From NCBI GenBank assembly GCA_918797485.1, contig CAKKNE010000004.1:1240001-1304000 (forward strand): a DNA stretch of 64,000 bases, given 5' to 3'. Under the pieces are notes generated by a model. That model searched no databases and was not told the origin of the DNA. It saw only the letters and a list, made by a program, of their open reading frames with translations. The translations under genes and the position numbers were made by a program. Source of the DNA: Pelagomonas calceolata. Taxonomy: Eukaryota; Sar; Pelagophyceae; Pelagomonadales; Pelagomonadaceae. This document shows positions 12,737-63,152 of the stretch, one piece after another; within the stretch, counting starts at the first letter, position 1, and every line of letters begins with the position of its first letter.

Positions 12737-13297
12737 CGTCGATGAGTTATGCAAAGGTGCCGCGCCGATGGTGTCCGCGCGTCGACGGCGTCCGCGCTGG
12801 CTTGTGACTTGGAGCGCACGCTGTCGCCGCAGCGATGGTGAACTTGCAGCGATTGCACCGTATGGATGTCTTAATCGACGCAGAGCTTCTCTCGTGCAGC
12901 CTTATGATCTGTACGGCACGAGCCAAAATACTATGCGCCCCGCGGCATAATTTGCTAGCGGTCTGTAACACACTAGGCATCCAGCAAGCAAGCGCCCCGG
13001 AGCCTTCCCCGGCGCCAGCGCTCTCCGGCCGCCCGGGCGCTCCCCGGCTACGCCTCGAGGCCGTGCGCGCCCCGAAACAACGCCGGAAAACATACTAGGA
13101 ACAGCGCGCTGTGTTCATTCATCTCCGCCGGCGCTGTGCTCCATAGACCGCGCAGCGACACCGCCGCGCATCCCAGCAGCCCCCCGAGGCGCCCCCGAGG
13201 CAGCCCCGAGCCACCACCAGCGGCGCACGCCACGCGCGGGCGCCCCAAGCGTGCCACGAGCAACAGGAGCAACAGCGCACGAGACGCGCCATAAAGC
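12737..13297. other. Divergent 5' gap with one dyad motif
   Basis: This 561-bp gap separates the RCC1 gene (minus) from the coiled-coil gene (plus). It contains a good copy of the dyad at 12954-12976. No coding region is supported. Confidence 0.5.
12954..12976 (+). promoter_or_regulatory. Recurrent intergenic dyad motif, copy 1
   Basis: GCTAGCG, then GTCTGTAACA, then CACTAG. It lies 218 bp upstream of the RCC1 start and 322 bp upstream of the coiled-coil start. Confidence 0.6.
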
Positions 13298-14871
13298 ATG
13301 CCCAAGAAGGGCAAGAAGGGCAAGAAGGCCGCCGCCGAGGAGGCCGCCCGCCTCGAGGCCGAGAAGGCCGCCGCCGAAGCCGAGGCGAAGCGCAAGTTCG
13401 AAGAAGAACTAAAAGCGCGCGAAGCCGCCTTGTTACTCCGCGAGGAACAGATCGCGAAGCGCGAGCAGGACGCCCAAGCTTTAGAAACTGATTTTAGATC
13501 CAAGCTGGAGGGTCTCGACGCCGAAGTAACCCTAAGAGCGAGGTCGGGCATCGCGGCCGCGGAAGCGAGAGAGGCGGCCACGGAGCGACGAGCCAAGATG
13601 CGCGAGGAAGAAGCGGCCCAGCGCGAAGCCGTGTTTCGGGAGGCCGAGACGACGATGGCGGTCCGGGAGGTCGAGGTCGCGGCTCGAGAAGCCGCGATGG
13701 GAGAAAACGTCATAGGCGGCGTCGCGGCGCGCCTCGACGCCATGCTCAGCGACCAGGCCATTTCCCGGGACCAGATGACGCAGCGCAAGAAGGAGATCGC
13801 GAAAGAAAGGGAGGCCCTCAAACTCCGCGAGCAGGCCTGGCGCGACGAGGTCCTCAAGATGGAGGCGACGCTGGCCCAGAAGGAGCGCGACGCGCGAGGC
13901 CGCGTCGAGCGCGAGGAGCGCAAGCTCATGCAGAAGGACTTTACGCTGAAAAGGCGATTGGCGCGACGGGTCAAGGAGGCTTCGGCGATCGTGCAGGCGC
14001 ACCGGGCGGAATGTGACGTGCGCGACCGCCGGTTACGGGTGAGGGAGGAGGAGATTCGGAGGCGGAACACGGACTTGGTGTATCTACTGCGAAGGGCGCG
14101 GAAGTACGAGGCCACGGCGAAGAGGTCGCAGCAGCGTCTGGACCCCGCGACGGTCGACGTCGACGACGCGCCCTGGGAACAGAGACCTCAAACAGCACCC
14201 TTGCGTCGCAGTGTGACGCCGGAGATCAACCCTGAATTAGATGATTTAGAATTGAGGGCCACTCAGGGTCTCGAGACCTACGGTGCTGACTCGGAGCAGA
14301 AAATGAACTTGAACTTGAACTGTGGTCGCGGCGATGGCGTCAACGCGACGTCACGTCACCGTGACGCCATCGGCGCGGCCGCGCGAGAGTCTACGCGTCT
14401 CGCGAGTGCACGGAGACAATTTCGTGACGGTGTCTGTTCCACGCAGGTGATGAGGTCCCGGACGCGAACGAGATCAAGTCGCCCACGAACTTGTACCGCC
14501 CGCCGACGAACCCCGCCGAGAAGTTCACGGACTTTAAGAAGCTGCCGGAGCCGTCCGTGCCCGCCGACGAATTTAGAGCGGTGCTCAAGCGCGTCCAGGG
14601 CATGGAGGACGAGCTCGCGCAGGAGTTACTCGGACATACCGGTGCCGATCCGGACGACGAGGCCGACGCCGTCGAGGCGGCGTTGAAAGACGTGCAAGCT
14701 GCCGAGAGGTTGGTCTTGGCGGCCGAAGGCTTGTCGGCGTCGCCTTCGAAGTCACGGCCGTATGCTGCCCGGAACTTAGATGCCGCCTTGGGCCCGGCGC
14801 CGGCGCCGTTCTCGTTGGACGACGACGGGCCCGTTGGCTTCGACCTGCCCGATTTTGCCGTGGAGGCCTAG
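13298..14871 (+). CDS. Basic coiled-coil protein
   Basis: Exons are 13298-14282 and 14447-14871, giving 469 residues. The N-terminus MPKKGKKGKK is lysine-rich. Residues 15-280 form an almost uninterrupted Ala/Glu/Arg coiled coil, and the C-terminal third is acidic and Pro-rich. Similar lysine-headed coiled coils are often ciliary or cytoskeletal, but nothing here proves that. The intron join ETYG-DEVPDANEIKSP keeps the frame. The apparent longer first-exon frame (to 14686) is read-through of the introner. Confidence 0.8.
14283..14446 (+). mobile_element. Introner intron, family B
   Basis: 164 bp. It starts GTGCTGACTCGGAGCAG and ends CACGCAG. Flanks GTGCTGA and GTGATGA may be a decayed target duplication. 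Confidence 0.88.
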
Positions 14872-15316
14872 AGGCGCTTACCCTTCCCTTTCCCCCCCTC
14901 GCATAAGGCGGGCGCCCCCCCCTGAGTCTTCTTCTGGTAGTCGTGGTTGCCTGAGGGCTGCTGCGTGTCCCCGTGGGAGCCTTCCGTGGGAGCTCGAGTG
15001 AGGCGTTCGTCGGCTGAGTACGTTCTTCCTAGTCGTTGCGTCCTGGGGCATTGAGGTCGCACCGAGGGCGCCGCGTCGACGGCGTGGGGGCGACGCAACG
15101 TAACACGGCGTGCGTCGACGACACGTCGTTGAAGCTTTGCTCGCTAGTGTCTTACGAGACGCTAGGTAGACCAGCTTTGCCAATAGGCCAAACGCACGCG
15201 AAAGCGCGTCGTTTGTCACGCATCGATTGTAAGGAGCTCCGCCGATACGACTGGACCGGCTACCGGCCGCTCCGAGCACCCGTGCGCACCGCTGGCGCTG
15301 AAACAAAAACGCTGCC
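14872..15316. other. Gap upstream of the GT2 gene
   Basis: I see no convincing gene. It holds one reverse-orientation dyad motif (15143-15165) and, near 15068, a copy of the introner core GTCGACGGCGTG. Confidence 0.5.
15143..15165 (-). promoter_or_regulatory. Recurrent intergenic dyad motif, copy 2
   Basis: On plus it reads GCTAGTG, TCTTACGAGA, CGCTAG. It is 152 bp upstream of the GT2 start. Confidence 0.55.
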
Positions 15317-16372
15317 ATGCGCACGCCCTGGGCCCTAGCGCTCCTCGTGGCCGCCGCGGCCGGCCGGAAGCGCAACCGCGAGCAGCGCGCCGACGCCGCG
15401 ACCGCCCGGAAGCGCGCCCGCACCCAACGAACAGAAGTGAGGGACTTCTACCGCAACGCCACGGCGCTGAGTCCAGTACAAACGGTAGCCGCCGTCGTCC
15501 TGAGCCACAACCACGAGGGCACGGTAAAACGCATCGCCGACGCGTTAAGTGAAGAGGTCGACTCCATCGTTATTGTAGAGGACGGCTCCACTGATAACTC
15601 ATACGAAGCGTGGCGTGCGGCACTACGATCGCACGCAAACGCGAAAATAATTCGGACCCCGGACGTCCACGAGATCCGAGCATATAACCGCGGCGCAGCT
15701 ATCGCGAACGCGGACGTCTACTGCTTCCTGCAGGACGACGACATTCCGAATGATCGTGGATGGGGTAAACGAGTGATGTCATTGTTCGACTCATTTAGAA
15801 AGCAGAGGCTGGCGGTGGTCTCGGGCCTGGCCACGGAAGTCTGTCAATCCGAGTGGGGCGAGGCACAAGTCGAACACCCGAAGGCCATGAAGAACCCGCG
15901 GGTCACGCGCAGGATTCCCTACGCTTATCGAGGCGTTCCCTTCGCGTTCGCCACGGAGGCGTGGCTCGCACCGTTATGTGTTAGAGCGGACGTTTGGGCT
16001 GACCTGGGAGGCTTCGACGAGAGTCTAGCTCTTAGTGGCGAGCCGGGCATTGGGCTGGATATTCACCTGTCGTTGCGAGCGGGCGTTCTGGGTTATGCGG
16101 TGGGCGTCTTCGGCGCGCTGTTTGAGCGAGGTGTTGGTGGTCATGGAACCGTGTCCTCACCAGAGAAAACAAAATTAAGATTAAGGAAGCGGGCCGAGAT
16201 CGGCGCGCGCATCCGGGCTGTCGCGGGGTGTCGGTGGCCGCCGGAGATGCTTGAGCGGGCGCGTTTGCTCAATGAGGAGCTGCTGGAGCGGCGGCCCGGC
16301 ACGGACGCGTTGCGGGAAGCTCGGGAGAAGTGCGCGCGCTTCAGGAAGCACCCGTGCCGGCGGCCCCCGTAG
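15317..16372 (+). CDS. Family 2 (GT-A fold) glycosyltransferase
   Basis: A single exon of 351 residues. A hydrophobic leader (MRTPWALALLVAAAAG) suggests a secretory or Golgi location. The GT2 hallmarks are present: VAAVVLSHNHEG at the first strand, VEDGSTDNS, an AYNRGAAIANADVYCFLQDDDI stretch containing the acidic metal-binding motif, and GGFDESL further on. GT2 enzymes move sugars from nucleotide-sugar donors; donor and acceptor cannot be told. A stretch of introner core motif follows directly after the stop. Confidence 0.88.
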   Translation: MRTPWALALLVAAAAGRKRNREQRADAATARKRARTQRTEVRDFYRNATALSPVQTVAAVVLSHNHEGTVKRIADALSEEVDSIVIVEDGSTDNSYEAWRAALRSHANAKIIRTPDVHEIRAYNRGAAIANADVYCFLQDDDIPNDRGWGKRVMSLFDSFRKQRLAVVSGLATEVCQSEWGEAQVEHPKAMKNPRVTRRIPYAYRGVPFAFATEAWLAPLCVRADVWADLGGFDESLALSGEPGIGLDIHLSLRAGVLGYAVGVFGALFERGVGGHGTVSSPEKTKLRLRKRAEIGARIRAVAGCRWPPEMLERARLLNEELLERRPGTDALREAREKCARFRKHPCRRPP

Positions 16373-16482
16373 GCCGTCGAGCTGGCGTCGCGTCGATGGC
16401 GTGGAGGTCATGTTTGAGCTGCCCGACGCCGTCGACGCGGCGCGCAAATGTTGTGTGAGTCACATGTCATAAGGTTATACTT
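16373..16482. repeat. Introner-like core in a 3' intergenic gap
   Basis: GTCGCGTCGATGGCGTGGAG and, 40 bp on, GACGCCGTCGACGCGG form an inverted pair like that inside introners. It lies outside any coding frame, between two convergent gene ends. Confidence 0.6.
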
Positions 16483-16962
16483 CTAGTAGGAGTTCTCATC
16501 TTCCAACGTCGCCTGGTTCGCGAACTCCGCCCTGGCAATGTCCTGGCACTTGGCGAGCATCTCCTCGTCGGGCTCCTCGCCGTTGGCCAGGACGGCGACG
16601 CACTCGTCGATGGGGTCGTCGGTCGACGCGAGGTGGTCGGCGCGCTTCGGCGACCTGTGTGCAAAACAACCAGTGAGATAGGTTGTCACGGCGACAAGCG
16701 TCGATGGCGTGGCATCGCCACGCCATCGCGCAGACGCAGCTACGGAAGCACGCCGCGTCGACGGCGTGGGGCGCCCGAAATTTGATTTCCACACGGCGCC
16801 GAACGCCATGAGCGCGACGAGGCCGTGCGCGACGACCTCGAAGCCCGCCGCCCGCTCTAGCGCGACGCCCGCGACCGCGGCGCTGCGCGTCGCAGGCGTG
16901 AACGCATTCGTAGTGCCAAGCGCGGCCGCTACCAGGAGGATCTGGGAGAGGCCTTTTTTCAT
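16483..16962 (-). CDS. Small plastid-type preprotein
   Basis: Exons are 16962-16793 and 16654-16483, giving 113 residues. The leader MKKGLSQILLVAAALGTTNAFTPATR is a signal peptide ending in AFTP, like the ASAFAP-type motif used for import into stramenopile plastids. The mature part is acidic (PDEEMLAKCQDIARAEFANQ) and not recognised. The join through the intron (FGAV-SPKRADHL) uses the GT two bases into GTGTGG, the only choice that keeps the downstream frame. Confidence 0.7.
   Translation of the reverse strand: MKKGLSQILLVAAALGTTNAFTPATRSAAVAGVALERAAGFEVVAHGLVALMAFGAVWKSNFGRPTPSTRRASVAASARWRGDATPSTLVAVTTYLTGCFAHRSPKRADHLASTDDPIDECVAVLANGEEPDEEMLAKCQDIARAEFANQATLEDENSY
16655..16792 (-). mobile_element. 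Introner intron, family A, degraded
   Basis: 138 bp. Ends are GTGGAAATCAAATTT and TTGCACACAG (minus strand). The flanks have diverged and no clear target repeat remains, so it is probably older than the 2.4-4.8 kb copies. Confidence 0.8.
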
Positions 16963-17462
16963 ATTTTGCAACTAATGCGGTTTCGCGTCTTGAAACGTTT
17001 CGTGCCGTGCGACGGTGCAGTGGGGATGTCTTGCAGCGCTGCTGCAGTTGCCGCGGCCTCCGCCCGCCGCGCTCAATGGGTCGGAGTCTTGGCTTGCATT
17101 CCTCCGGCGCCAGGTGGCCAAGCAAAAACGCCCCGAGGTGGCCCTTCGAAGCCGTCCAGGGGCACGCGGGGAGGCCCAATGAGGGAGAAGAAGGGTGGAA
17201 AAGGAGGGGGCTTAAAAACGGGTTTTTGCAGCCGCATAGTTTGATGAGCGTTTTAGCACACGCTCAGCGCCCTCTCGCACCTTGTGAGGAGCGATTGCGA
17301 CATCTTTTGTAGCCTAGATCGCAACGCCGAGAGATTTCACGCCGCGAGCGTCCAGCGGCTGCGTAACCAAGGCGCTCTCCGGCACGCGCACGCGCTCATA
17401 CGCCGACGCCGCAGCTATAAACAAACGCGTCTTCACCTGGGACGCCGCCACCGCAATAAACG
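16963..17462. other. Divergent 5' gap
   Basis: This 500-bp gap between two divergent starts has no supported gene. Near 17210-17225 there is a self-complementary AAAACGGGTTTT stretch. I see no clear copy of the dyad motif. Confidence 0.4.
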
Positions 17463-17900
17463 ATGGCCGGCTCCAAGCGCCGCCGGAAACAGGTCGACGC
17501 CACCCCTCGTAAAGAAGGCCGCGTCTCGGCCCGCCTCCAGTCTTTATATTCGCCGACGGACCAGCCCCAAACACCCGTCGTCGACTTCGTGAGGGCCGGC
17601 ATACCCTTCAAAGCGAGGAAGTGGGTCAAGGCTTCGAAAAGAGTGGGAGGCGAGGGGCCCCAAGGTTTCTCAATACCGCGCTGGGCGCCCGTCGGCGACG
17701 TGACGCCGCAACTCCAGGCCGTGAAGAACCACCCGGCGCCGCGCCACAAGGGCCGGAAGAAGAGCCCGCGGGCGTCGCCGACTCCTGGGAGCGCGAGTGA
17801 GTCGAACAACGACGATAGTCAAGACGAGGACGCCGCCGCCGCCGCTGCGAAGGACGCCATGGCGTCGCCGCCGGCCCCGGCCATGGACGAGTCGGCGTAA
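17463..17900 (+). CDS. Small basic protein of unknown function
   Basis: A single exon of 145 residues from a clear ATG. The N-terminus is very basic (MAGSKRRRKQVDATPRK), the middle is Pro-rich and basic, and the tail is acidic and Ala-rich (SNNDDSQDEDAAAAAAK). No domain is recognised. The composition suggests a nuclear, disordered protein. Confidence 0.55.
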   Translation: MAGSKRRRKQVDATPRKEGRVSARLQSLYSPTDQPQTPVVDFVRAGIPFKARKWVKASKRVGGEGPQGFSIPRWAPVGDVTPQLQAVKNHPAPRHKGRKKSPRASPTPGSASESNNDDSQDEDAAAAAAKDAMASPPAPAMDESA

Positions 17901-18076
17901 TCATGATGTGTGTGTAATACCCGGGTGCCGCGTCGGCGGCGTGGGCGCGTTGGTTGGAGCTCCCAGCCGAACTATCGGTTCGTTCACAGAGTGCGCCGTC
18001 GCGGCGATGGCGTCTACCCCCCCAGCACGCCGTCGCCGCGACGCATCGACCGACGGACTACTACCGAAACCTATCC

Positions 18077-20463: not shown

Positions 20464-21200
20464 GGTGCTTGCAAGGCGTGCAGCGGTTGCAGCGCTTTGG
20501 CTCGCACAGCGCAAGTGTGACTAAAGCTGCGTATCAATGCCTGAAATGAGCTCTGCTGCAGCGATGTCGATCTGTAGCCGCTTTCACACGACGTCGAGGT
20601 GCAGCTTGTGAGACGATCAGCTAGTGTTTGAAAGCTCGCTCAAAGTCCAGACCTCCTCTTCTAGCGCTCTCGGAGGCGTCAACCGAACGGCGACGCGTCC
20701 GTTGCGGCGCCCTACGAGGTAGGGCTCTGGCTAGCACCACGTCTGCGCTTCGAGCCCAGGTTGGCAAATAACTGAGCAGCAACGCGCGTCAGGGTGAAGT
20801 AGCCGTGTCCGGAGTATCGAGGAAGATCGCAGCTCGCCGGGCCCCGGCTTGGACCACGCGTCGCGGGCGGTACGGCCGCTGCTGTCAGCTGACAGCTTAG
20901 GCTGGAATCCGCGGCCGTCGTTGTTCGCCGGCGCGGCGCGCGCTGGTGACGGCGCCGCCGGCCGTGCCGTGCGCGCCCACGGCCGGCGACAGCGGCTCCC
21001 CGGCCCGTGGGTCCGGCTGGCCACCCCCGCGGCCGTCGGAAGCGAGCTCGCCCGCGCGGCGGCCGGGAGCACACCCACACATACGAGAGAGGCACGCCGG
21101 CGGCGCGCGCCGCGCGAGGACACACACACGAGCGACGACCCTCACGCCGTCCGAACGCGCAGGTCATTCGAATCGCCTGACGTCGCCGCGCGTTTCGACG
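20464..21200. other. Divergent 5' gap
   Basis: This 737-bp gap lies between acetoacetyl-CoA synthetase and the aminomutase. It holds a degenerate dyad at about 20620-20640 (GCTAGTGTTTGAAAGCTCGCT). The open frames here are GC-driven and not supported as genes. Confidence 0.5.
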
Positions 21201-23046: not shown

Positions 23047-23254
23047 GCGTCGCGTTACGTGGTCGCCCCACCACCCCCTCTCGTAACGACCGATTCTATT
23101 GTAGTTGGTTTGTCTCATATCATCGCCGGCACTTCGGCGAGGCGTGGCGCGTCGATGGCGTCGAGCGAGTCCTTCCCGAGCGCTGGATGTGGGGCCGCGC
23201 CGACCCATACGCCGTCGACGCAATAGCTATGTCTATATTAAACCCCAGTCCTCC

Positions 23255-25578: not shown

Positions 25579-25925
25579 TGCTCGACGCCGCTGCTCGTGC
25601 GATCGATGCTGCGCTGCAAGGTCACGTCTTTAGCTGCTCATGGCCCAAAACCGAGCAGTATCGCAGCCGTTGCGTTGGCTGAAAATGACCACGACTGTGT
25701 CCAGCCGCAATCCAAGCTAGAGCTACGCTACGCTAGCTAGTTTTGGACGCCTGCGTCCATCGCTTTTTGCAAGCGCTTCCTCCACCGTAAGAGCATTGAA
25801 GCATCAGGCCAAAAAACTTTGCGACGACGATGACAAGGTCTGGCGCAAGCTTTTTGATCAGAGCCAGGCCTGCTTCGTCGTCGGCGCGGCGGCAGTATTC
25901 ATTTGTTCAGAGTGGTCGCAGAGCC
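25579..25925. other. Divergent 5' gap
   Basis: This 347-bp gap has a degenerate CTAGC dyad at about 25716-25737 and a GCTTTTTGCAAGCGC stretch. No gene is supported. Confidence 0.45.
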
Positions 25926-27100: not shown

Positions 27101-27163
27101 TGTACAGTATGTGTTATTGTACTAACATTTAGGACCGCGCGTCGATGGCGTAAAGGCGGTGTA

Positions 27164-28307: not shown

Positions 28308-28748
28308 GCACTACTCGGCCGCGCTCAGCTAGACGGCTGCCCCGCGGCGGCGCTAGCTGCCCAGCACCACACGCGGCTGCCCCCACGCGCCGACGGTGTT
28401 TCCCGCGGCGGGCGTCGACCCGCTGGCCTTTCCGAGGCAGGCGGCGACTCGCTGCGCCCGGCGTTGCCCGGAGAGTCGCACTCGGGCAAGCGTTGTGCGG
28501 CGTTTTGCGCGTGTTTTGCGTGCTAGCTAGTATGTTACATGCCGCTAGCTCATTGCTTGCAAAAAAAGCGTACAGCTCGACGCTGGCACGGAGCTGGACG
28601 CGGAGAGGTCTGAGACGCGCGAAATAAGTGCAAGAAGCGACCTACGCGGCGCCGGCCTCGCAGGTGCCGCCGCGGCCGCCGCCGAGCCCACACCTGATCA
28701 GCTGAGGCAGCAAAAAACCGGCAGCACTCGACCGACGCACTAAAAAGG
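28308..28748. other. Divergent 5' gap with dyad motif
   Basis: This 441-bp gap has the dyad at 28526-28549 and an A-tract element (TTGCAAAAAAAGCG) just after it. No coding region is supported. Confidence 0.5.
28526..28549 (-). promoter_or_regulatory. Recurrent intergenic dyad motif, copy 3
   Basis: On plus it reads GCTAGTA, TGTTACATGC, CGCTAGC. It lies between divergent genes, 219 bp and 200 bp from their starts. Confidence 0.6.
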
Positions 28749-33064: not shown

Positions 33065-33402
33065 CGTGTGCGATAGGTGGGCTGCCCTCCGCTGCCGCGC
33101 CGGAGCCGCAGCGATGGAGGGGGCCGGGGGCTTTGCGAAACGGGTTCGTGCGTGCAGCCTCGGGCAACTCAGCCGCAAGGCAGGGGTCTCCGGGCGAGGA
33201 GCAAGCTTTAGCTAGCGGCATGTAAGGCACTAGCAACCTCGGCAGCAAAGCCAAAAAACGCCTGTTATAGAGCGCGCAGCAAGCTGTATAACAAGGCAAG
33301 TTTATAATTCGTGCTATCATCCAGCCCTGCGTTGAATAACCCACGTCTTCTGCATCAATAAGTGCAGATTCAGCAATACGCCATCGGCGCGCGACGGCAG
33401 CG
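33065..33402. other. Divergent 5' gap (CDPK / ALG7)
   Basis: This 338-bp gap has the dyad at its centre (33211-33234), followed by GCCAAAAAACGCC. There is no other feature. Confidence 0.55.
33211..33234 (+). promoter_or_regulatory. Recurrent intergenic dyad motif, copy 4
   Basis: GCTAGCG, GCATGTAAGG, CACTAGC, a consensus-like copy. It lies 147 bp from the CDPK start and 169 bp from the ALG7 start. Confidence 0.7.
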
Positions 33403-42443: not shown

Positions 42444-42714
42444 CGCTTCCTGTCTCTGGCTGCCTCGCTGGCTGCGGAGAGCTGCGGAGAGCTGTGCTGG
42501 TGTTGGGTGTGCCGCTAGGTTTGCAGCAGAGCAGAGATGTCACCGATGCAAATGAGCACAGCACAATTTCGGCGCGCAGACTGCGACGCTCTTTAGGTCG
42601 CGCCAAGCTGCTCTGCTCGACAGGCTCCGGCTCCGCGATTCGGCTGGAGCTAGCGGCCTGTAAGACACTAGCAAACAGATATATATATCTCGATACTTCT
42701 AGTACAAACAATCC
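42444..42714. other. 5' gap of the nuclease-helicase gene
   Basis: It carries the dyad at 42649-42672 and a short direct repeat of GCTGCGGAGA near 42474-42492. No gene is seen. Confidence 0.45.
42649..42672 (+). promoter_or_regulatory. Recurrent intergenic dyad motif, copy 5
   Basis: GCTAGCG, GCCTGTAAGA, CACTAGC, then AAACAG. It lies 206 bp upstream of the nuclease-helicase start. Confidence 0.7.
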
Positions 42715-43107: not shown

Positions 43108-43584
43108 GACCAGGGCAATCTTGCGATCACGTATCGAAACCTCGGACGGAATGAAGAGGCCCTGAGCCTGCGACGAGACGTATACTCTGGATGGTTGAAG
43201 CTCAAGGGCGAGGAACATGAAAATACCCTCCTAGCAGCCAACAACTACGCGACGTCCCTTGTTTGTCTAAAGCGCTTCGAAGCAGCCAAATCACTGTATC
43301 GCAAAACGATCCCCGTCGCGCGACGCGTTCTCGGAGAGGGTCATGACGTCACGTTCAGGATGAGGAAAGGTTACGCACGTGCGCTCTGCGAGGACCCCAC
43401 CGCCACGGTCGACGATCTTCACGAGGCCGTGACGACGATCGAAGAGACGATACGGACGGCTCGGCGCGTGATGGGTCGCGCGCATCCTCTCACAGTGGCA
43501 ATTGAGCACGATCTGCGAAAGACGCGAGCCGTCCTCCGCGCCCGCGAGACGCCGCCGTCGCCGTCGCCGGCGGGGAGTGTGTAA
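43108..43584 (+). pseudogene. Duplicated 3' fragment of the MYND/TPR gene
   Basis: It matches the last 150 or so codons of the gene at 43770-44897, beginning at the shared GGCAATCTTGCG and running to a stop at 43584. The frame is still open (ITYRNLGRNEEALSLRRDVYSG, LAANNYATSL, AKSLYRKTIPVARRVLGEG). The MYND and RING-like parts are missing and there is no convincing start. It is a recent, 5'-truncated tandem copy, or a small TPR gene if a start has been captured. Confidence 0.7.
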
Positions 43585-43671: not shown

Positions 43672-43694
43672 GCTAGCGGTTGTAAGGCACTAGC
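43672..43694 (+). promoter_or_regulatory. Recurrent intergenic dyad motif, copy 6
   Basis: GCTAGCG, GTTGTAAGG, CACTAGC, then AAACAA. The spacer is one base shorter. It is 76 bp upstream of the MYND/TPR start. Confidence 0.68.
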
Positions 43695-43769: not shown

Positions 43770-44897
43770 ATGATCCTCACGCAGTGCGCCGTCTGCGCCA
43801 CCGAGCTTGGCTTAAGCTTGGGCAAGAAATGCGGCCGCTGCAGCACACGCTACTGTGGGCCTGAATGCCAGAAACAACACTGGGAAGCGGGCGGCCACGA
43901 CCAGCTTTGCAAACCGATAAAAAAGGCGGGCGGCGCCGAGCAGTATAATGCCAATAAGAGATACACGGAGGCCGTCGCGGAGGCCGTCGAGGCGTGCGCC
44001 GAGGACACGAAGGGCCAGACGTGCTACATCTGCACGCAGGCCCTCCACTGGAAGACGAAGGAGGGCCTCGTACGCGGGTGTTCGTGCCGCGGGACGGCGG
44101 GCCTCGCGCATGTGTCGTGCCTGGCGGAGCAGGCGAAGATTTTATTCGCGGAGGCCGAGGAGAACAATAAACCATTAGATCCAGCGTGGGCGCGGTGGCA
44201 CACGTGCGGCCTGTGCAAGCAAAATCATCACGGCGTCGTGCGGGGCGCGCTCGGCTGGGCGTGCTGGAAAACGTACGTGGGCCGGCCGGAGGGGGACTGG
44301 AATCGGATCAACGCGATGAATGAGCTCGGGACCGGTTTATCCGCCGCAGAGCACCACGAGGACGCGTTGGCCGTGAGGGAGGCCGAATTGTCTACACGGC
44401 GGCGCCTTGGTGATTCAGAGGAATCCATTCTCACCGTGCAGGGCAATCTTGCGGTCACGTATGTAGTGATCGGGCGGCACGAAGAGGCCCTAAATCTATA
44501 TCGTGATGTATACTCTGGACGTGTGAGGCTCAATGGCGAGGAACACTTGACCACCCTTATAGCAGCCAACAACTACGCGCTGTCCCTAAATGAACTAAAG
44601 CGCTTCGAAGAAGCCAAGCCGTTGCTGCGCAGAACGATCCCCGTGGCGCGACGTGTTCTCGAAGATGGCAATGACACCATGCTCAAGATGAGGTGGACTT
44701 ATGCGCAGACCCTCTACAAGGACGACGGCGCCACGCTCGACGATGTCCGCGAGGCCGTGACGACTCTCGAGGACACGGGACGGATCGCGCGGCGCGTGCT
44801 CGGCGGCGCGCACCCGACCACAACGGGGATTGAGGACCATCTGCGAGTCGCGCGAGCAATCCTCCGCGCCCGCGAGGCGCCGCCGACGAGTGGCTAA
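43770..44897 (+). CDS. MYND / RING-like zinc-finger and TPR protein
   Basis: A single exon of 375 residues. It has an N-terminal MYND finger (CAVCATELGLSLGKKC, then CSTRYCGPECQ, HWEAGGHDQLC). A second Cys/His cluster follows (CYICTQ, CSCRGTAGLAHVSCL, CGLCKQNHHG) resembling a RING-CH finger. From residue 180 come kinesin-light-chain-type TPRs (VQGNLAVTYVVIGRHEEAL, AANNYALSLNELKRFEEA). The layout suggests a protein-interaction or ubiquitin-ligase adaptor. A truncated copy of its 3' end lies just upstream. Confidence 0.85.
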   Translation: MILTQCAVCATELGLSLGKKCGRCSTRYCGPECQKQHWEAGGHDQLCKPIKKAGGAEQYNANKRYTEAVAEAVEACAEDTKGQTCYICTQALHWKTKEGLVRGCSCRGTAGLAHVSCLAEQAKILFAEAEENNKPLDPAWARWHTCGLCKQNHHGVVRGALGWACWKTYVGRPEGDWNRINAMNELGTGLSAAEHHEDALAVREAELSTRRRLGDSEESILTVQGNLAVTYVVIGRHEEALNLYRDVYSGRVRLNGEEHLTTLIAANNYALSLNELKRFEEAKPLLRRTIPVARRVLEDGNDTMLKMRWTYAQTLYKDDGATLDDVREAVTTLEDTGRIARRVLGGAHPTTTGIEDHLRVARAILRAREAPPTSG

Positions 44898-45910: not shown

Positions 45911-46386
45911 CTTTTGCTTGTTGATGCGCTACCCGATCGTCTTCTTGTTGATGTTGCGCGTCGCGTCGATGGCGTATCACGTCGGATGCTGCCGCGGAGG
46001 CTGCGGTTCCCGACGTCGAGTCTTGAGGCTGGGATGAATCCCTGGCGCCTAGATACGGCTCCTGTTTTCGATGCTGGGCAGTGCCGCGGGATCGGTTCTG
46101 TCCTGCGGCAGCGCTACGCGTGCACAAAGGCAAACGTACAGGCTTGCGCTCCTGGGATTTTTGTCTGCTTGCTAGTGTGTTACTGGACGCTAGCACCGGG
46201 TCGGCGCGGCTCTGCGTTTTGCCGGGGCTCGCATACCTGGTGGACGTTGACCATTTGAACAGCTCTCAAACGCTGCCGACGAAGCCGCCGTCGAAGCGTC
46301 ACCAGCCGCCGCATCGCCTGGCACTGAAAACTCCCAGGGGCCCCAGCATCCTTCCGCAGCCACACAACACCACAACACCGTAACCA
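45911..46386. other. Divergent 5' gap with dyad motif
   Basis: This 476-bp gap has the dyad at 46171-46194 and, near 45960, one GTCGCGTCGATGGCGTA introner core. No gene is supported. Confidence 0.5.
46171..46194 (-). promoter_or_regulatory. Recurrent intergenic dyad motif, copy 7
   Basis: On plus it reads GCTAGTG, TGTTACTGGA, CGCTAGC. It lies 193 bp from the EHD start and 261 bp from the pyrophosphatase start. Confidence 0.65.
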
Positions 46387-48566: not shown

Positions 48567-48569
48567 CGC

Positions 48570-49082: not shown

Positions 49083-49207
49083 TTTCGGACAACATTTCTT
49101 CTTATCTGAAGTTATCATCACTAGCCGAGGAGAACGGACCCAGCAACTCCATTGATAATCCCTGGTGCTTAAAGACCAAATCTTTGGAATCAACATACAT
49201 AGCTTAC

Positions 49208-49900: not shown

Positions 49901-50099
49901 AAAATATGGTCTGACCAAGAGAGCCGTGAGAGGCGCTATCTATGGACAGCGCAGCGAAAACGGGCAGAGACCGCGCAATAGCGGTGCGCCGCTGTAGCGG
50001 AACGCCTATGCGCTGCGTCCCGGTACGCAAGTCGCCGCGTACGCGTGGTGCCTCTAGTGTGTTTCAACTAGATGCGTTTTTTATCAGGGCTACAGGTCC

Positions 50100-50320: not shown

Positions 50321-50369
50321 CCATTGCTTTGTGACCTTCCACTCCCCGCGAAAAAGTCAAAGAACACGA

Positions 50370-50393
50370 GCTAGCGGCATGTAAGGCACTAGG
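50370..50393 (+). promoter_or_regulatory. Recurrent intergenic dyad motif, copy 8
   Basis: GCTAGCG, GCATGTAAGG, CACTAGG, then AAACAC. It is 96 bp upstream of the glutaredoxin-like start. Confidence 0.68.
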
Positions 50394-50488
50394 AAACACA
50401 AAAGCGGCAGTCGCCGCACGCGTGCGGCTGCGCACTCAAAAACGCCAGGAAAGGACTCATTTGGACACGCCGTCGACGCCTGCGACCG

Positions 50489-50908: not shown

Positions 50909-50910
50909 CA

Positions 50911-53900: not shown

Positions 53901-54068
53901 GTCGTTCACGCCGTCGTCGCGGTGGCTCGCCGTGAAGAGGGCCCGGCAGGCCTCCTTCAGCGGCAGGGCGGCGCCCTTCTCGAACTCCCTCGCCGCGATT
54001 CTTACGTGGCCGATCTTCTTGACCTTGGTCACGGCTGCCGCGGGGGCGTCCCGGCGCTGCTCGGCCAT
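50911..54068 (-). CDS. Large protein of unknown function
   Basis: Exons are 54068-52760, 52597-51960 and 51870-50911, giving 968 residues. The first exon encodes a globular region (VKKIGHVRIAAREF, LWCGHGIAIVLPGDLL, GVHVSQKVLRRGDRIVIA) that I do not recognise. A helical part (AMAYIGINRLDGAAECLTC) resembles a TPR. A Ser/Arg/Pro-rich low-complexity segment (GSRSRSRPGSRKKSRPATP), a Glu-rich coiled coil across intron 2 and a second globular region follow. Both introns keep frame; the second needs a GC donor. Only two bases separate its stop from the stop of the convergent glutaredoxin-like gene. Confidence 0.78.
51871..51959 (-). mobile_element. Introner intron, family A, short, GC donor
   Basis: 89 bp, GCCCGTGCATAATTCC...TTCCGCACAG. 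Phase 0 on both sides requires the GC start and gives AKAARAQEEEEALAK. Flanks GCCCGTGC and GCCCAGGA share four bases. Confidence 0.78.
52598..52759 (-). mobile_element. Introner intron, family B
   Basis: 162 bp, GTGCTGACTCGGCGTG...TCGACGCAG, with ATCGATGGCGTCAACGCG. The join gives WVPGPPPDLDKMD. Confidence 0.87.
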
Positions 54069-54384
54069 GGGTGGGTCTGAGCGCTACCTAGGCCCCGGGA
54101 GGCAGCCCAAACGTAGCAAGCGCACGGCTGCCGTGCCAGATGACGCCTTCGACCCGTCGCCCGCGCCTATGGGCCGCCGCAATGCGCCTGGGCAGGCTCA
54201 GCCGAGCGCTAGCGCTAGCATCCATCTGCGCTAGCTAAAGCAAAAATTTAAATCGAGGACGGGCGCTCCCACCGCGTGCCTGCGGCCAGGCGGTGGTAGA
54301 TCTGAACGAGGTAGCTTTCTAGAGAAGCGGGCGCGTGCCCCGGAGGCGCTTTCCCGGTGGCTGCCCTCACGCATCGACAGCACC
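54069..54384. other. Divergent 5' gap
   Basis: This 316-bp gap is rich in CTAGC sequences. It includes a possible degenerate dyad near 54208-54236 (GCTAGCA ... GCGCTAGC), then GCAAAAATTTAAATCG. No gene is seen. Confidence 0.45.
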
Positions 54385-57333: not shown

Positions 57334-58049
57334 GTATACCCTGTTAGTACGGTCATAGCTAGGACGAACACTGCACAGAAGGCGCAGGGCGTCGCTCGTA
57401 AAAACGCCCCGATCAGCGACGGCCGCGAATTCAAAGCCAGACTCTCCAGCTTTGTTTGAGCGTCCTTCAATCTCTTTTGAGCGGAATCGAGCGTGTACCT
57501 CCTTCGTACGGGCCGCGCCACCGGTAGTAATGGTGTATCCCTCCGGTCGAGCTCGAAGAAGGCCCGGACCAGCCTCAGACCGAACAAGGAGCCGCCCGTA
57601 GCATTGGTAGCCGTCGTTAATGCTTCGGCGAGGCCTCGCAGTAACTCCAGGCGCTCCGCCGCGAAATCAGATTGCGCATCAGACTCGTACAAGTTGCCCG
57701 CGACACCATTTCCAGATAAGAAGGCGGAATGTCTAGGAAAAGGCGGCAAATCAGCCCCACAAGCCTCGGCCTGGTCCGTTAACGATTCCCAGAACTTTTT
57801 CACTTCCGAAAAACGTTTCGTGACGTTGTCGCGGTGGTCGCCGTTTTCTTCCACTGAAAAAACATACACTAATTGCTTTTCTTTTTTGAGGACTCTGGCG
57901 GGGTCGAGCTTCGAGTGCGCCTTTGTCATTTCGACGCGGATCGCGTCGACGACGATATGTCCGGGGGGTGGTGGCGTCATGCCCGGAGAATCTGGTGGCG
58001 GCGGCCAGCTCGCGATCAGCCTTTCCATCTGGCGCGTGGCGTTCTCCAT
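57330..58049 (-). CDS. PX-domain, tail-anchored protein
   Basis: 239 residues from the ATG at 58049; the longer frame starts only with TTG. The region VYVFSVEENGDHRDNVTKRF through LPPFPRHSAF fits a PX (phosphoinositide-binding) fold. A helical segment (SAQKRLKDAQTKLESLAL) and one C-terminal membrane span (CAFCAVFVLAMTVLTG) follow. It is likely an endosomal or vacuolar sorting-nexin-like protein. Its 3' end overlaps the last four bases of ClpB, which is convergent. Confidence 0.75.
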   Translation of the reverse strand: MENATRQMERLIASWPPPPDSPGMTPPPPGHIVVDAIRVEMTKAHSKLDPARVLKKEKQLVYVFSVEENGDHRDNVTKRFSEVKKFWESLTDQAEACGADLPPFPRHSAFLSGNGVAGNLYESDAQSDFAAERLELLRGLAEALTTATNATGGSLFGLRLVRAFFELDRRDTPLLPVARPVRRRYTLDSAQKRLKDAQTKLESLALNSRPSLIGAFLRATPCAFCAVFVLAMTVLTGYT

Positions 58050-58386
58050 CTGTGGTGAGCGCTGCGGCGTCCGCGTTTTGCGGTGGCTTCCGCTGCCGGC
58101 GCGGCGGGCAAAGGAGCTTGTGGTGCTGGGAGAGCGCTCTGCAGTTACGGGCCACCGCGACGACCGCTGCCGGGAGAGCTGTACGCGCGGGCCACTGGTC
58201 GTCTGGCAAGCTATCCAACGCGCGAACAGGATGCAAAACCGATGCAAATACGAGTAGTCAGCTGCTTGTTTTTGCCTGCTAGTGTCTTACAGGACGCTAG
58301 CCTCGCAGGATCGACTCAAGCGCCGCAGTCATTGCACACATGCGTTGTCGCATCGCAGACCGCGTTTTGGAGTCATGATTTGATCC
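58050..58386. other. Divergent 5' gap with dyad motif
   Basis: This 337-bp gap carries the dyad at 58278-58301. No other feature is supported. Confidence 0.5.
58278..58301 (-). promoter_or_regulatory. Recurrent intergenic dyad motif, copy 9
   Basis: On plus it reads GCTAGTG, TCTTACAGGA, CGCTAGC. It is 86 bp upstream of the hydrolase start and 229 bp from the PX-gene start. Confidence 0.7.
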
Positions 58387-59328
58387 ATGCGTGGGCTCCT
58401 GGCCTTCTTCTTGCAGCTGTGCACCGCCTTGCGCACTCCGCACCCTTGCCTCAGCAATGGCATCGGTCGCCGCGCCGCCTTAACGCTGCCTCTCGCGCCA
58501 ACCGCCGCCGTGGCCGCGACGGACGCGACGACCGTGAGCTACGGCCCGCGAGAGGCGGACCTCTACTTGCAACCCGGACGACGGCCCGTCGTGGCGTTGC
58601 TGCACGACAGCCTGACCGCGTCGCGAGGCTCGCTCGACGCGGTCGCGCGGGACGTCATTGCACGCACGGCGTACCACTGCGTCAACTTCGACTACCGAGG
58701 CTCGGGCGACGTTGAAACAGCCATGGAATGGCTTGCCAGCCCCGAGGCCGCCGCGCTGGGTCTCACAAACGACGTCGTGCTGATCGGACACGGCGTCGGT
58801 GGTCAACTGGCTTTCCGACACGCGCTCCGAGGGTCTCCAAAGCTCCGAGGGACGTCCACGACCTCCGCGCGCCTCCGCGGCGTCGTCGCATGTGGGGCAC
58901 CGCTGGACCTGCGCGAGGCGCGCGCGCTCGGGATTGATGTGAGCGGCGACTCGCCGATCGCGCTCCTGCCGCCGGCGATGACGTCGTCGCTGCGCACCGC
59001 GGCCTGGACGGCCTGGGAGGAATTACTGGTTGTGGAGACGTCGTTCTCGCTGGTCCACGGCCTCGACGACGCGGTGGTCCCGCCGGCGCTGTCGACGCGC
59101 TTCGTCGTCGCCGCGGCGACGGGCGGCATTCCTACCGAGTACCACGAGATAAAGGGCGAGGGCCACAGCTCAATGCTCGACCCGGCGTCGTACTCCTGGC
59201 GGGTGGCGCGCGCCGCGGCCGTCGCAGCCATGAAAACGCAGCCTCGGCCCCCGGAGACGCTGCGCATGGCGCCGACGCGCCGCGCCGATACGGACCGGGA
59301 GATTTTGATCCGCACGTTAAGAATGTAG
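58387..59328 (+). CDS. Alpha/beta-hydrolase-fold protein lacking the nucleophile Ser
   Basis: A single exon of 313 residues. The leader MRGLLAFFLQLCTALRTP is a signal peptide. It is followed by RRAALTLPLAPTAAVAA, a twin-Arg-type second signal that would suit the thylakoid lumen. The fold is clear (VVALLHDS; VNFDYRGSGD; VVLIGHGVGGQLAF). The nucleophile elbow is GHGVGG, with Gly where Ser is expected. The acid (HGLDDAVVP) and His (GEGHSSM) remain. It is probably non-hydrolytic or uses another mechanism. Inside the central region a neutral-rich insert separates the two halves. Confidence 0.8.
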   Translation: MRGLLAFFLQLCTALRTPHPCLSNGIGRRAALTLPLAPTAAVAATDATTVSYGPREADLYLQPGRRPVVALLHDSLTASRGSLDAVARDVIARTAYHCVNFDYRGSGDVETAMEWLASPEAAALGLTNDVVLIGHGVGGQLAFRHALRGSPKLRGTSTTSARLRGVVACGAPLDLREARALGIDVSGDSPIALLPPAMTSSLRTAAWTAWEELLVVETSFSLVHGLDDAVVPPALSTRFVVAAATGGIPTEYHEIKGEGHSSMLDPASYSWRVARAAAVAAMKTQPRPPETLRMAPTRRADTDREILIRTLRM

Positions 59329-59389
59329 TGTCTGTGACTCCCGAGTCGATCCTAGTTACGAGTGGGGGGGGGCTAGGGGTAGGATCATT

Positions 59390-62300
59390 CTAGGCGACGA
59401 GCTCGACCTCCTTGTTCGAGACCACCGAAGGCGCAGATTCAACTTTTTTCTCGCCCTCGTCGAGCATCTTGCCGATGGGGTCCTCCCACGTTAATATTCC
59501 GGTGTAGACCAGCGCCGCCGTCAAGACCACGAACAAACCGAGCGGCGGGAAGCCCCAGTAGTAGAACTCCCAGTGCTTGTCGTACGTCTTCAGTAAAGGA
59601 GCAATCGTGAGACTGACCATGCTCATCAACTTGATGAGGATGTTCAGGGCCGGCCCCGACGTGTCCTTGAAGGGGTCGCCGACCGTGTCGCCCACCACAC
59701 ACGCGTCGTACCACGTCTTCTTCATCGGATGAGCTAAGCTTCCGTCGGCGTTCTTGACCTTGGACAGGCCCTGTGTGGAAATCAAAATGTTACGGCGCGA
59801 CCGAGCCACACCGGTTGATTTATGCACAGGTCGTCGCCTTCGTGCCGTCCTTCTCGCAGTACTTCTTCGCGTTGTCCCAGGCGCCGCCGGCGTTGCTCAT
59901 CATTATCGCGACCATGGCACCACTTCCAATGCCACCTGCCAACATACCCACCAAGCAGCGGGGACCGACCAAGAAGCCCACGAACAAGGGCGCGAGGATC
60001 GCGTAGGCGCCGGGCGCGATCATCTCCCGCACCGACGACTTGGTACTGATAGCCACACATTTGTTGCTGTCGGGAATGACGTCCATGTGGGGAGGAATCG
60101 GCTCGCCGTTCGACGCCATAATAATACAATCCTTGAGGGTGGTCTTGCCGTCCTGGGCGACGAGGTCGGGGCGGTTGTGGAATTGGTCGCGGACCTCCAT
60201 GATGATCTCGGCGGCGGCCTTGCCGACGGAGATCATCGTGAGGGCCGCGAACATGTAGGGCAGCATGGCGCCTGCGAGGTTCAAAACGTGATGCCACGCC
60301 ATCTTCATGAATCGTCTCCGGGAGAGGAGGCGACGGGTGGTCTCTCGTCGAAATTTGGGCCGAATTCGGACGCCGGCGCGGGCCGAAGAGCATGCCGCTC
60401 AACACATACGGATCGGTCACGGCGAGTAATGAAACATCTAATTGAGCTTGTTCCTTGAAGGCCGCCAACAAACTGAGGGAAGTGAGCACGGCCGACCCGA
60501 TCGCAAAGCCTTTCCCGGTCGCGGCCGTCGTGTTCCCCAGAGCGTCCAACGAATCCGTGATGCACCGCACCTCGTCGGGGATCGCGGGGTCCATCTCCGC
60601 CAGCCCGCCCGCGTTGTCCGCGACGGGACCATAAGCATCGGTAGCTAAAGTGATTCCTAGAGTAGCTAACATCCCGACGGCCGCGATCGCGACGCCGTAC
60701 TCGCCCTTGATCGCCGCGCATCCTAAGATGGCGCAGACTAACACGACGATCGTCGGCACGCAGGAGATCATGCCCACGCCGAGGCCCTGGATCGTCACGG
60801 TCGCGGGGCCCGTCGCGCCCCGAGCCTTAATGGACTTGACCGGAGCAAAATCAAAACTCGTGAAGTACTCCGTGATCTTCCCGATGACCATGCCGCAGGC
60901 CAGACCGATCAAGACGCAGATGTAGGCCCCCCACATGCCCCCCAATAAGTGGCAGCACGCCGCCGCGAGGCCCAGGAAGAGCACACCAGCTAACATGGTG
61001 CCCTTCTCGAGGGCCCACATCAAGGCACCCAAGTTCGAGTTCCAGCCCTCGCCCTTCTCGTTCGTGCTGACGGCCATGGTCCCAATCTGTGTGGAAATCA
61101 AAGTTCAACTTGTGCTTCGTTTGCGTGAGGTGCTGCTCGCTCCAGTCGGTCGAGTGTATCTCTCGGAGATCGTGTCCGAGTCTCGAGACTCACTGGTTGA
61201 TTTCCACACAGGTCCCGACCATCGCCGCGACGACGCCGCACGCGCTCAACCAAAAAGGTAAGGCGATCTCGTTGTCCCGCTTGGCCAGCGTCGCCGCGGC
61301 GATGATGCTCCCAACATACGATTCGAAGAGGTCCGCGCCCATGCCCGCGACGTCGCCGACGTTGTCGCCGACGTTGTCGGCGATCACGGCCGGGTTGTGC
61401 GGGTCGTCCTCGTCGATGCCCGCCTCGACCTTGCCTACTAGATCCGCGCCGACGTCCGCGGCCTTCGTGTAGATGCCGCCGGCCACGCGCGCGAACAAAG
61501 CGATGCTTGAAGCACCAAACCCGAAGCCCGCCAGAATTTGGAGCGACTCCGTCTTGCCCAATCCATTATGGATGGCGAGGACGCAGAAGCAGCCCGCGCA
61601 GCCCACTAACCCAAGGCCTGCGCGGAGCATCGTGGTCTCTCGATTCGGTCTCAAAATCAAAAAAGAAACCACCCACGACCTCGTCTGATGGACGCGAGTC
61701 GTATCAGTGAAGTGAAGGCGCCTCCACACGACGGGACGCCGAGATCGCACCGACGACCACAAATCCCATGACGCTCCCGGCCTTGAACGCGACGCGCAAC
61801 CCGTCATTCAGCGACCCCGTGCCGCCCGTGACCTTGCCCTGGGCGTCCTTCACTTCTTTCCCGGCGCAGGCCGCCGTCGTGCGCGTGTTGCCTGCGCGGC
61901 GCATCGCGGTGTCCGAACGGCCTCAAACTCGAAGAAGAAACCACCCACGTCCATCGTTCCTGGAGACGAGTCGTATTGAAGTGAAGGCACCGACGTGGGA
62001 CGCCGCGAGCGCGCCGTCCGTGGCCACCATCATGCCGAGCCAGCCGGCCGACGCGCTGAGGATCGCGCCGAGGAAGAAGGCGAAGGTCGTCAGCACGCCG
62101 TCGAGCTTCGTGTGCTGGTCCTCCACCGAAAAAAGGGCGCAGAGGATGCCTCCCAACAAGACCACGAAGACGCTCAGCCACTTGTACTCCTCCTTCAGAA
62201 ACGCCATCGCGCCTTCCTTGATCATCGCGCCGTACTTGTCCACCAAAGGACGGCCGACGTCCTTGCCCGTGGGCTCGCCCTTGAGCGAGAAGAACGTGTA

Positions 62301-62726
62301 CGTCGTGAAGGCTAGTGCTAAAACGCCGCTGCGAGGGGCGTGGCGTCATGTCGCTGCCGCGCGATGCGATCGAGTCTCTCTCTCCCTAGCGCGCCGCGGG
62401 CCCGCACTCCGCATCGAGGAGTCCTCGCTGCGTGCTGTGCGTGGCGCGCCGCCGCGGTCCCGCGCCAGGGCGACGGGGGTGGCACGCGCGTATCGCGCCG
62501 CCGCCGCGGCCGCAAGCCAGCTCTTCCTGGAAGAGCGCCGGCCGCGGCGACGCGCGCCGGCGGTCCTCTGAACTCCCATCGCCGCGGTGCGCGGCTCGGC
62601 GCGCCGGCGCGCCGTCGGCGATGCGTCAACTAGGCGAGCTGCTCAAGAGACACCGGCATTGCACCCGACGAGCGCCGGCAGCGCGATCTCGAGGACCGTC
62701 TTGTCGTTCCGGGCGAAGGGGGCCAT
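59390..62726 (-). CDS. H+-translocating membrane pyrophosphatase
   Basis: Seven exons: 62726-62665, 62328-62015, 61891-61751, 61617-61220, 61086-60384, 60271-59838 and 59770-59390, giving 810 residues. About 15 hydrophobic segments are present. Family motifs are [14 protein letters not shown] (pyrophosphate site), [34 protein letters not shown] and [14 protein letters not shown]. The enzyme pumps protons across the vacuolar membrane using pyrophosphate. Position 541 reads GAML, inside the region that separates K+-dependent from K+-independent types; I cannot assign the type by eye. Five of six introns are introners, and three need GC donors. Confidence 0.94.
59771..59837 (-). mobile_element. 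Mini-introner, family A, GC donor
   Basis: The element is 59771-59829 (59 bp), CTGTGCATAAATCAACC...TTGATTTCCACACAG on minus. The 8 bases before it (GCGACGAC) supply the GC donor. The join gives [15 protein letters not shown]. Confidence 0.85.
60272..60383 (-). mobile_element. Introner intron, diverged, GC donor
   Basis: 112 bp, GCCCGCGCCGGCGTCC...AACCTCGCAG. Phase 1 on both sides gives [13 protein letters not shown], the conserved family sequence. Confidence 0.8.
61087..61219 (-). mobile_element. Chimeric introner: family A ends, family D body
   Basis: The element is 61087-61211 (125 bp) with family A inverted repeats. Flanks are GTCCCAAT (61079-61086) and GTCCCGAC (61212-61219). The body matches the EHD intron at 46644. 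The join gives VAAMIGTMAVS. Confidence 0.88.
61618..61750 (-). mobile_element. Introner intron, family C
   Basis: 133 bp, GTGCGATCTCGGCGTCCCG...CCGCGCAG, nearly the same 5' block as the ClpB intron at 54807. Confidence 0.9.
61892..62014 (-). mobile_element. Introner intron, family C, GC donor
   Basis: 123 bp, GCGCGCTCGCGGCGTCCC...GCCGCGCAG. It aligns to family C copies that start GTGCGATCTCGGCGTCCC, with T changed to C at the donor. The join gives [13 protein letters not shown]. Confidence 0.85.
62329..62664 (-). other. Conventional-looking intron, 336 bp
   Basis: GTGCAATGCC...CCTCGCAG. It lacks introner ends and the shared core. The join (ALPALVGGVLALAF) completes the first membrane helix of the pyrophosphatase. 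It is the only intron here I cannot link to an introner family. The first exon is inferred from frame and the hydrophobic pattern. Confidence 0.6.
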
Positions 62727-63152
62727 CGTCCCGGCGGGTTGCGCAGCACCTGCGGCTGCCCTACCACTCGCACGTACCAGTCGGTGCGCGCGCAAACGTG
62801 GCCCTTTGGTTGTGCGTACCAGCCGTGCTAGTAGCCTCAACTTTGCGTCTGCGTCTCGTAGTAGGGCCTGCCGGAGGCGCACGGCCTCCCGGGGAGGCGC
62901 TCGGCGGAGGTTTACTCCGGAGCTGGGGGCCGCGCGCGTGACACGCAAACGACCCCGTGGAGGTCCCGGAGACCGGCGGACGCTGACGCGTGCCCGGTGC
63001 ATGGTGCTCTCTCGCGCCCACTCGAACGACATCACGGCAGCCGCTTCCTAGTGTCTTACATGCCGCTAGCTCCAGCTCTCCGAGTTTTGGGGCTTTTTTG
63101 TGGCTGCCAGACGTCGTGCCGACGCGCCGAGGTCGTTGAGCGACGCCTCAGC
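62727..63152. other. Divergent 5' gap with dyad motif
   Basis: This 426-bp gap has the dyad at 63047-63070. Long GC-driven open frames are present on both strands and are not supported. Confidence 0.45.
63047..63070 (-). promoter_or_regulatory. Recurrent intergenic dyad motif, copy 10
   Basis: On plus it reads CCTAGTG, TCTTACATGC, CGCTAGC. It is 83 bp upstream of the PIG-M start. Confidence 0.68.

Follow-up and report, generated by a model that had tools for sequence, protein, structure and literature searches.

A near-invariant bipartite dyad in the 5′ gaps of the Pelagomonas calceolata genome, a probable two-way promoter element

In animals, the REST/NRSE (neuron-restrictive silencer element) and CTCF systems combine two unequal half-sites, a range of tolerated spacings, and one multi-finger protein that reads them; REST represses transcription, and CTCF binds mostly at distal sites or boundaries. 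For the animal factor ZNF143 (Staf), passages of a preprint give a 29-base motif and 4,682 chromatin immunoprecipitation (ChIP) peaks, and the factor is said there to stimulate initiation; a set of motifs, to which ZNF143 presumably belongs, is described in the same passages as enriched within bidirectional promoters (PMC11118474). The yeast general regulatory factors (GRFs) Abf1, Reb1, and Rap1 help to establish nucleosome-depleted regions, according to the relevant part of PMC11069190, and GRFs are reported in a portion of PMC9481977 to limit divergent noncoding transcription. Here, we describe a dyad of two unequal arms that recurs in the gaps upstream of genes in the pelagophyte Pelagomonas calceolata, which counts among the most abundant algae of the ocean. 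It was noticed in a stretch of 64,000 bases (C4:1240001-1304000, contig CAKKNE010000004.1, called the window below) and is present at thousands of places in the genome. We consider it likely that the dyad is the site of a lineage-specific general transcription factor, or of a fixed complex of two, which would found promoters, mostly two-way ones serving head-to-head genes.

Abf1 and Reb1 sites are far shorter than this dyad. The comparison with REST and CTCF lies in the two unequal halves with elastic spacing; the sequence of the dyad is different. By analogy with the yeast GRFs, the putative dyad factor would likewise open gene regulatory regions, the difference being that GRFs also limit divergent noncoding transcription, as stated in part of PMC9481977. 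ZNF143 and its Staf-binding site (SBS) resemble the dyad, as far as the passages of the preprint go, in the length of the motif, the thousands of sites, and the link to bidirectional promoters. The two sequences are unrelated, however, and the ZNF143 motif is called degenerate (PMC11118474), whereas the arms of the dyad are near-invariant. Membership of the dyad in the ZNF143/SBS family was rejected, given that its consensus GCTAGCGKNNTGTAAGRCACTAGCAA lacks on either strand the TGGGA core that is quoted in the same passages (PMC11118474). Another short dispersed element of the same genome is the introner; an intron-length peak near 210 bp, characteristic of introners, is described in sections of PMC9481584. 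The dyad differs from introners in its length of 20 to 26 bp, in its location in gaps between coding segments, and in the lack of long flanking similarity. No printed description of the dyad appeared among the literature matches listed, in a search that left aside supplements, subscription papers, and most preprints, and the words “motif” and “promoter” gave no text matches in two genome papers, including PMC9481584.

The genome analyzed has 32,445,274 bases in 8 contigs, six of which add up to 32,315,327 bases and the other two to 129,947. For strain RCC100, parts of PMC9481584 give six nuclear contigs of 32.4 Mb, a plastid of 90 kb, a mitochondrion of 39 kb, and 16,667 genes. The abundance of the dyad was explored with patterns of different stringency. 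The exact 20-letter pattern GCTAGCGNNNTGTAAGNCACTAGC had 411 + 374 matches (785) in the genome, compared with 0 + 0 for the control. Dyads with exact arms and a spacer of 4 to 18 bp numbered 2,465, versus 31 for the reversed control pattern; the forward and reverse arm-exact counts are equal because the pattern is its own complement and finds the same sites. A longer pattern with up to three mismatches had at least 1,088 + 1,153 matches, versus 0 + 2 for the control, and in the window a strict full-arm pattern had 4 exact matches, versus none in 100 dinucleotide shuffles. For density, the window and five 20-kb stretches of C2 to C6 taken at round coordinates (the fresh 100 kb), together 164 kb, were scored with a matrix at a cut of 14, where simulated sequence yields the equivalent of 0.3 sites in 164 kb, compared with 26 in the real sequence. 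This density of ∼1 per 6.3 kb extrapolates to a total of 5,121 dyads (range, 3,345 to 7,503), and the fresh 100 kb taken by itself, with 14 sites, would extrapolate to ∼4,500. Large portions of C1/C5 and of C3/C6 are duplicated in the assembly, as a section of PMC9481584 describes, and part of the copies is therefore counted double.

The anatomy of the element was examined in 80 site-centered loci of 2,001 bp, 60 of them among the first 67 arm-exact matches listed and 20 from the longer-pattern matches; one locus (L069), which lies between two dyads, was excluded, leaving 79. The consensus is GCTAGCG-KNN-TGTAAGR-CACTAGC-AA. When the sites are oriented one way, all 79 have GCTAGCG on the left and CACTAGC on the right, which indicates an asymmetric element and not a plain palindrome. 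At arm position 6, the pair is C and A in 79/79 oriented sites, either letter having been permitted in the search for 60 loci and fixed by the pattern for 19. The remaining arm positions were held constant by the search pattern, so that compensatory change is assessable at position 6 alone. The spacer is elastic, from N6 to N12, and gives a total length of 20 to 26 bp. It is mostly N10 (56 sites, 19 of them from the longer-pattern set, where N10 is fixed; 37/60 in the remaining sites), followed by N9 (9 sites), N11 (5), N8 (4), N6 (3), N7 (1), and N12 (1). On the 3′ side of the right arm, A, A, G, and C follow at 80%, 73%, 49%, and 48%, and base composition is near-flat past ∼5 bp from the dyad.

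The core plus one arm is almost always accompanied by the other arm. A pattern with a set left arm and core and an open right arm had 838 genome matches, and by eye CACTAG was intact in ∼96 of the ∼100 listed, with 3 others one letter off. The converse pattern, in which any left arm was allowed beside a set core and right arm, had 596, and in ∼97 of the ∼100 listed the left arm was seen at its usual position or a little displaced, with no more than one letter altered. Solitary 7-letter arms without core or dyad are also present in the window. The information content is ∼33 bits per site, a figure biased upward by the matrix selection of the 26 sites of the 164 kb from which it was taken, whereas singling out 5,000 places in this genome requires 13.7 bits.

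Genes were called with a codon-usage model trained on the long open frames of the window and applied to the whole 164 kb. Sixteen sites fall within 15 of the 30 divergent gaps, whereas a site is found in 8 of the 46 same-strand gaps, introns included, and in 1 of the 29 convergent gaps; one of the 26 sites, at a sequence end, was unclassed. Called coding sequence, 124,821 bases, contains none. Divergent gaps differ from convergent gaps (Fisher’s test, p 6.4e-5) and from same-strand gaps (p 0.004). Taken separately, the window has a site in 8/11 divergent, 4/30 same-strand, and 0/11 convergent gaps, with none in 46,314 coding bases, and the fresh 100 kb has one in 7/19, 4/16, and 1/18, respectively, the convergent site being weak (score, 18.6). 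The proposal of an earlier note on this DNA that every copy lies in a 5′ gap thus holds in the window but is not absolute beyond it. Among the 79 site-centered loci, 48 are divergent, 10 lie between two plus-strand genes, 10 between two minus-strand genes, and 1 is convergent, the other 10 having one side uncalled. These neighbor classes (69 loci with both neighbors) depart from the available gap bases (chi-square p 1.2e-6), and the head-to-head enrichment is that expected of a bidirectional-promoter element. The genes downstream of the window dyads belong to unlike Pfam families (kinase, pyrophosphatase, helicase, PIG-M, and glutaredoxin, with an aminotransferase at a weak site). Many unrelated target promoters, as would be expected for the site of a general regulatory factor, are indicated by these families and by the estimated ∼5,100 copies.

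The position of the dyad within the gap was measured relative to the start codons. The ATG next to the left arm is at a median distance of 194.5 bp (n = 64) and the one next to the right arm at 189 bp (n = 59); in the 46 pairs with both, the summed distances have a median of 400 bp. The dyad lies in the middle third between both ATGs in 32 of these 46 pairs (Kolmogorov-Smirnov p 0.016). Among the tandem gaps, 10 have the gene start that faces the dyad on the right of the motif and 10 have it on the left, and motif direction is therefore independent of gene direction. The asymmetric core had been taken to give the element a direction, which is true of the DNA itself and unrelated to the direction of the genes. 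The central position and the indifference to orientation favor a center serving both genes over an oriented core element; an oriented core promoter element, such as TATA or the initiator (Inr), was rejected on the 10 versus 10 tandem cases. The suggestion that the dyad is a widespread promoter element is supported at the level of sequence by the genome counts, the absence from called coding sequence, the near-absence from 3′-3′ gaps, and the ∼190 bp that separate it from starts.

From these properties we infer protein binding, two-way transcription, and chromatin opening. A putative factor of the architectural or pioneer type would bind the dyad, reading the TGTAAGR core along with two unequal half-sites that both contain CTAG (GCTAGCG and CACTAGC). 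Such a factor would tolerate a spacer of 6 to 12 bp and seems to need both half-sites. Placed near the middle of the ∼400-bp gap, it may keep the gap open, and the transcription machinery would start on either side, between the dyad and the start codons ∼190 bp away. If so, a near-invariant dyad at thousands of loci offers a bait for the factor and a start prediction for thousands of genes, as well as a way to examine how two promoters can be driven from one site. The excess of information (∼33 versus 13.7 bits) poses a sharp puzzle for binding-site theory.

Several observations weigh against this reading of the dyad as the site of a general factor. Half of the divergent gaps in the 164 kb have no site scoring at least 14, and the dyad is therefore not a universal promoter part. 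In C6:1000001-1020000 (L089, L090), four divergent gaps of 131 to 994 bp are without a dyad; this stretch is GC-rich (69%) and compact, and it may perhaps use another promoter class. A further promoter class probably exists for dyad-less divergent gaps. In 15 of them no second motif accounting for these gaps emerged, the best words being present in 5 to 7. In the fresh 100 kb, the contrast between divergent and same-strand gaps is not significant (p 0.49) and that between divergent and convergent gaps reaches only p 0.042, so that the divergent versus same-strand contrast is carried by the window and the site-centered set. The gene calls come solely from the window-trained codon-usage model, and the same-strand class contains introns. 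A zf-C2H2 search for a candidate factor, of low power given the shortness of the domain, gave 2 matches with one finger each and no candidate protein.

The finding that only half of the divergent gaps in the 164 kb carry a dyad would suit a regulon, in which the dyad is the activator or repressor site of a pathway-specific factor (responding to iron, light, or the cell cycle, for example) with a very large target set. The number of copies and the unlike genes that follow them in the window speak against this, and the central position better suits an organizing role; we regard a regulon site as unlikely. That same central position between head-to-head genes, the indifference to orientation, and the long and bipartite motif would also fit a boundary or insulator of the CTCF or BEAF kind, separating two genes rather than driving both. 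However, 20 of the 69 scored sites are in tandem gaps upstream of a single start codon, and convergent gaps, where a pure boundary would be expected too, hold a site in one case of 29, which makes this explanation improbable. A long fixed motif within 5′ gaps is likewise what a replication-origin recognition sequence in open intergenic DNA would look like, but the distance to start codons is tight and ∼1 dyad per 6.3 kb is too dense, since eukaryotic origins need a far lower density; we give this possibility very little credence. The near-complementarity of the arms raises the further option of a transcribed RNA hairpin in 5′ untranslated regions (UTRs). The C/A pair fixed at arm position 6 in 79/79 sites would fail to pair on one strand and form no more than a G-U wobble on the other, with no compensatory change, and the orientation to genes is random. 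An RNA hairpin is for these reasons hardly credible.

The remaining explanation, that the dyads are remnants or termini of a mobile element and that the copies are related by transposition, was examined by BLAST of the dyad-masked flanks (400 bp per side), which returned 17 hits, spread over 12 of the 3,081 pairs. In 6 pairs, with 11 of the hits, four loci (L002, L008, L057, and L076) are linked by a common repeat that starts beside the dyad; in the remaining 6, which include a match of 306 bp, the similarity lies away from the dyad. A dispersed repeat beginning at the dyad in 4/79 sites, together with edge dyads scoring at least 17 in 10 of 18 further copies of this repeat and weak ones in 3, is what favors a mobile origin. 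Against it, flank similarity at the dyad is limited to those four sites, the spacer letters and flanks vary, and across the dyad there is a divergent gene in 10/10 repeat copies examined, so that the repeat copies look like users or neighbors of the dyad and not its source. The earlier note had named long flanking similarity, left by one mobile element, as one finding that would overturn a promoter element, and 75/79 sites have no common flank abutting the dyad. A mobile origin is thus very improbable.

The repeat itself starts a few bases from the right arm and was aligned over ∼400 bp in 22 copies. A genome search scored 41 matches of 184 candidates: 38 long ones at 77 to 88% identity, 1 short one, and two at 100%, which are the query itself and its duplicate. 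Besides the four loci named above, copies were collected at L093-L110 and at G000:C1:83634-84059. In one pair of copies the similarity recurs at ∼1.0 to 1.37 kb from the dyad and ends there. Over 900 bp, the longest frames without a stop reach 105 to 163 codons; Rfam gave no match in the window or in 8 loci including the repeat, and the consensus fold of the family had a covariation term of −0.03, with no covariation support. The 18 further copies among the 41 matches were searched for an edge dyad over ∼50 to 100 bp beyond the repeat, where 5 had none and the 3 weak ones scored 12.5 to 12.7. In the 560 bp beyond the dyad, the coding signal leads away from it in all 10 dyad-bearing copies, weakly in two of them (scores, 8.6 and 8.8), and the first in-frame ATG is ∼110 to 260 bp away. 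The four sampled repeat loci also have a divergent neighbor, in L002 only at 575 bp. These arrangements suggest that the repeat fills the place of the second gene at a two-way promoter, either as a noncoding transcription unit driven by the dyad or as a mobile unit settling beside dyads. Carried further, the dyad could be a master organizer of the transcription of this genome, with a pair of factors reading the ∼33 bits, that also serves a family of noncoding units (∼1.3 kb in one pair) opposite protein genes, an extension that we find possible but doubtful. It would imply two proteins on the same 26 bp, or a template that also positions two polymerase complexes back to back, and, if true, one two-way start would be common to protein genes and to a repeated unit, either RNA or mobile.

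The copies in the window are listed in Table 1. All ten strong copies reported earlier were recovered in place with scores of 29.6 to 45.3, whereas of the four weaker ones two, near 11380 and 25716, exceed the cut of 14 and two, near 20620 and 54208, fall below it. The coding signal of the PIG-M gene begins near 63213, which makes ATG 63060, within the dyad, unlikely as its start. The plus-strand open reading frame (ORF) with ATG 33403 has a Glycos_transf_4 match below the cut-off.

Table 1. Dyads of the 64-kb window, in window coordinates, with matrix scores and gene setting
Copy	Spacer (bp)	Position	Strand	Score	Setting
Weak dyad		11379..11402	+	14.8	Same-strand gap upstream of ABC-transporter gene (minus, ATG 11134)
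Last base G	10	12954..12977	+	29.6	Between RCC1-repeat gene (minus, ATG 12736) and ORF (plus, ATG 13298)
One end base altered	10	15143..15166	-	32.9	Tandem gap, 151 bp upstream of glycosyltransferase-2 ATG (plus, 15317)
Weak dyad	8	25716..25737	-	16.3	Between aminotransferase (minus, ATG 25578) and thioredoxin-fold gene (plus, ATG 25830)
One arm base altered	10	28526..28549	-	31.7	Divergent gap, plus ORF ATG 28749
Perfect arms	10	33211..33234	+	39.9	Between protein kinase (minus, ATG 33064) and plus ORF (ATG 33403)
Perfect arms	10	42649..42672	+	45.3	206 bp upstream of DEAD-type helicase ATG (minus, 42443)
Perfect arms	9	43672..43694	+	39.9	76 bp upstream of TPR/MYND gene ATG (plus, 43770)
Perfect arms	10	46171..46194	-	39.5	Between inorganic pyrophosphatase (minus, ATG 45910) and EHD-type gene (plus, ATG 46387)
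Last base G	10	50370..50393	+	34.2	96 bp upstream of an ATG of glutaredoxin-like gene (plus, 50489)
Perfect arms	10	58278..58301	-	39.7	Between minus ORF (ATG 58049) and alpha/beta-hydrolase gene (plus, ATG 58387)
One end base altered	10	63047..63070	-	38.8	Upstream of PIG-M mannosyltransferase gene (plus)

At 54196-54235, a divergent gap holds a cluster of GCTAGCG/CGCTAGC half-sites, which as a dyad is below the cut. Two 300-bp stretches of the window, 43111-43410 and 44439-44738, are 74% alike, and the second is within the TPR/MYND gene; this similarity suggests that the interval from the dyad at 42649 to that at 43672 contains a paralogue, either decayed or unannotated.

Runs of A5/T5 occur within 40 bp of the dyad on the right in 20/79 sites and on the left in 18/79, compared with 10 and 4 at 60 to 100 bp and 4 and 13 at 120 to 160 bp. 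An A-tract following AAACA on the 3′ side had been described as frequent; the A5/T5 enrichment stands as a tendency, and the usual flank is AA, then often GC, and not AAACA. Within 260 bp of the 75 repeat-free sites, ATCGATGC is over-represented (11/75 versus 0.8 expected), as is CGATAGCG (10/75 versus 0.6 expected), and both are possible partner sites. Dyads also occur as nearby pairs, in opposite orientation at L085:8223-8246 and 8258-8280 and in equal orientation at C1:575885-575948 and at C2:1156563 and 1157125.

Outside this genome, the exact 20-letter pattern had no match in viral contigs and a single one in prokaryote genome contigs, located within a stretch of a metagenome-bin contig that is 90 to 96% identical to this genome. 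The dyad as a viral or prokaryotic promoter was rejected on these grounds. The contig, CAJWEZ010000013.1, comes from a bin labeled uncultured Spirochaeta and is probably a chimeric assembly; its 1.6-kb stretch (L091:2043-3615) matches C1, dyad included. The 24 letters of the dyad are unaltered there, with small gaps and substitutions on both sides, which amounts to a single natural variant and not a test.

The earlier note had offered a nucleosome-boundary element as an alternative to a promoter; introner positions were considered as a sequence-only ruler for nucleosomes, for which the 21 data points are too few. The word taken as the introner core is present 30 times in the 64-kb window, compared with 3 in 100 kb elsewhere, and introners look clustered.

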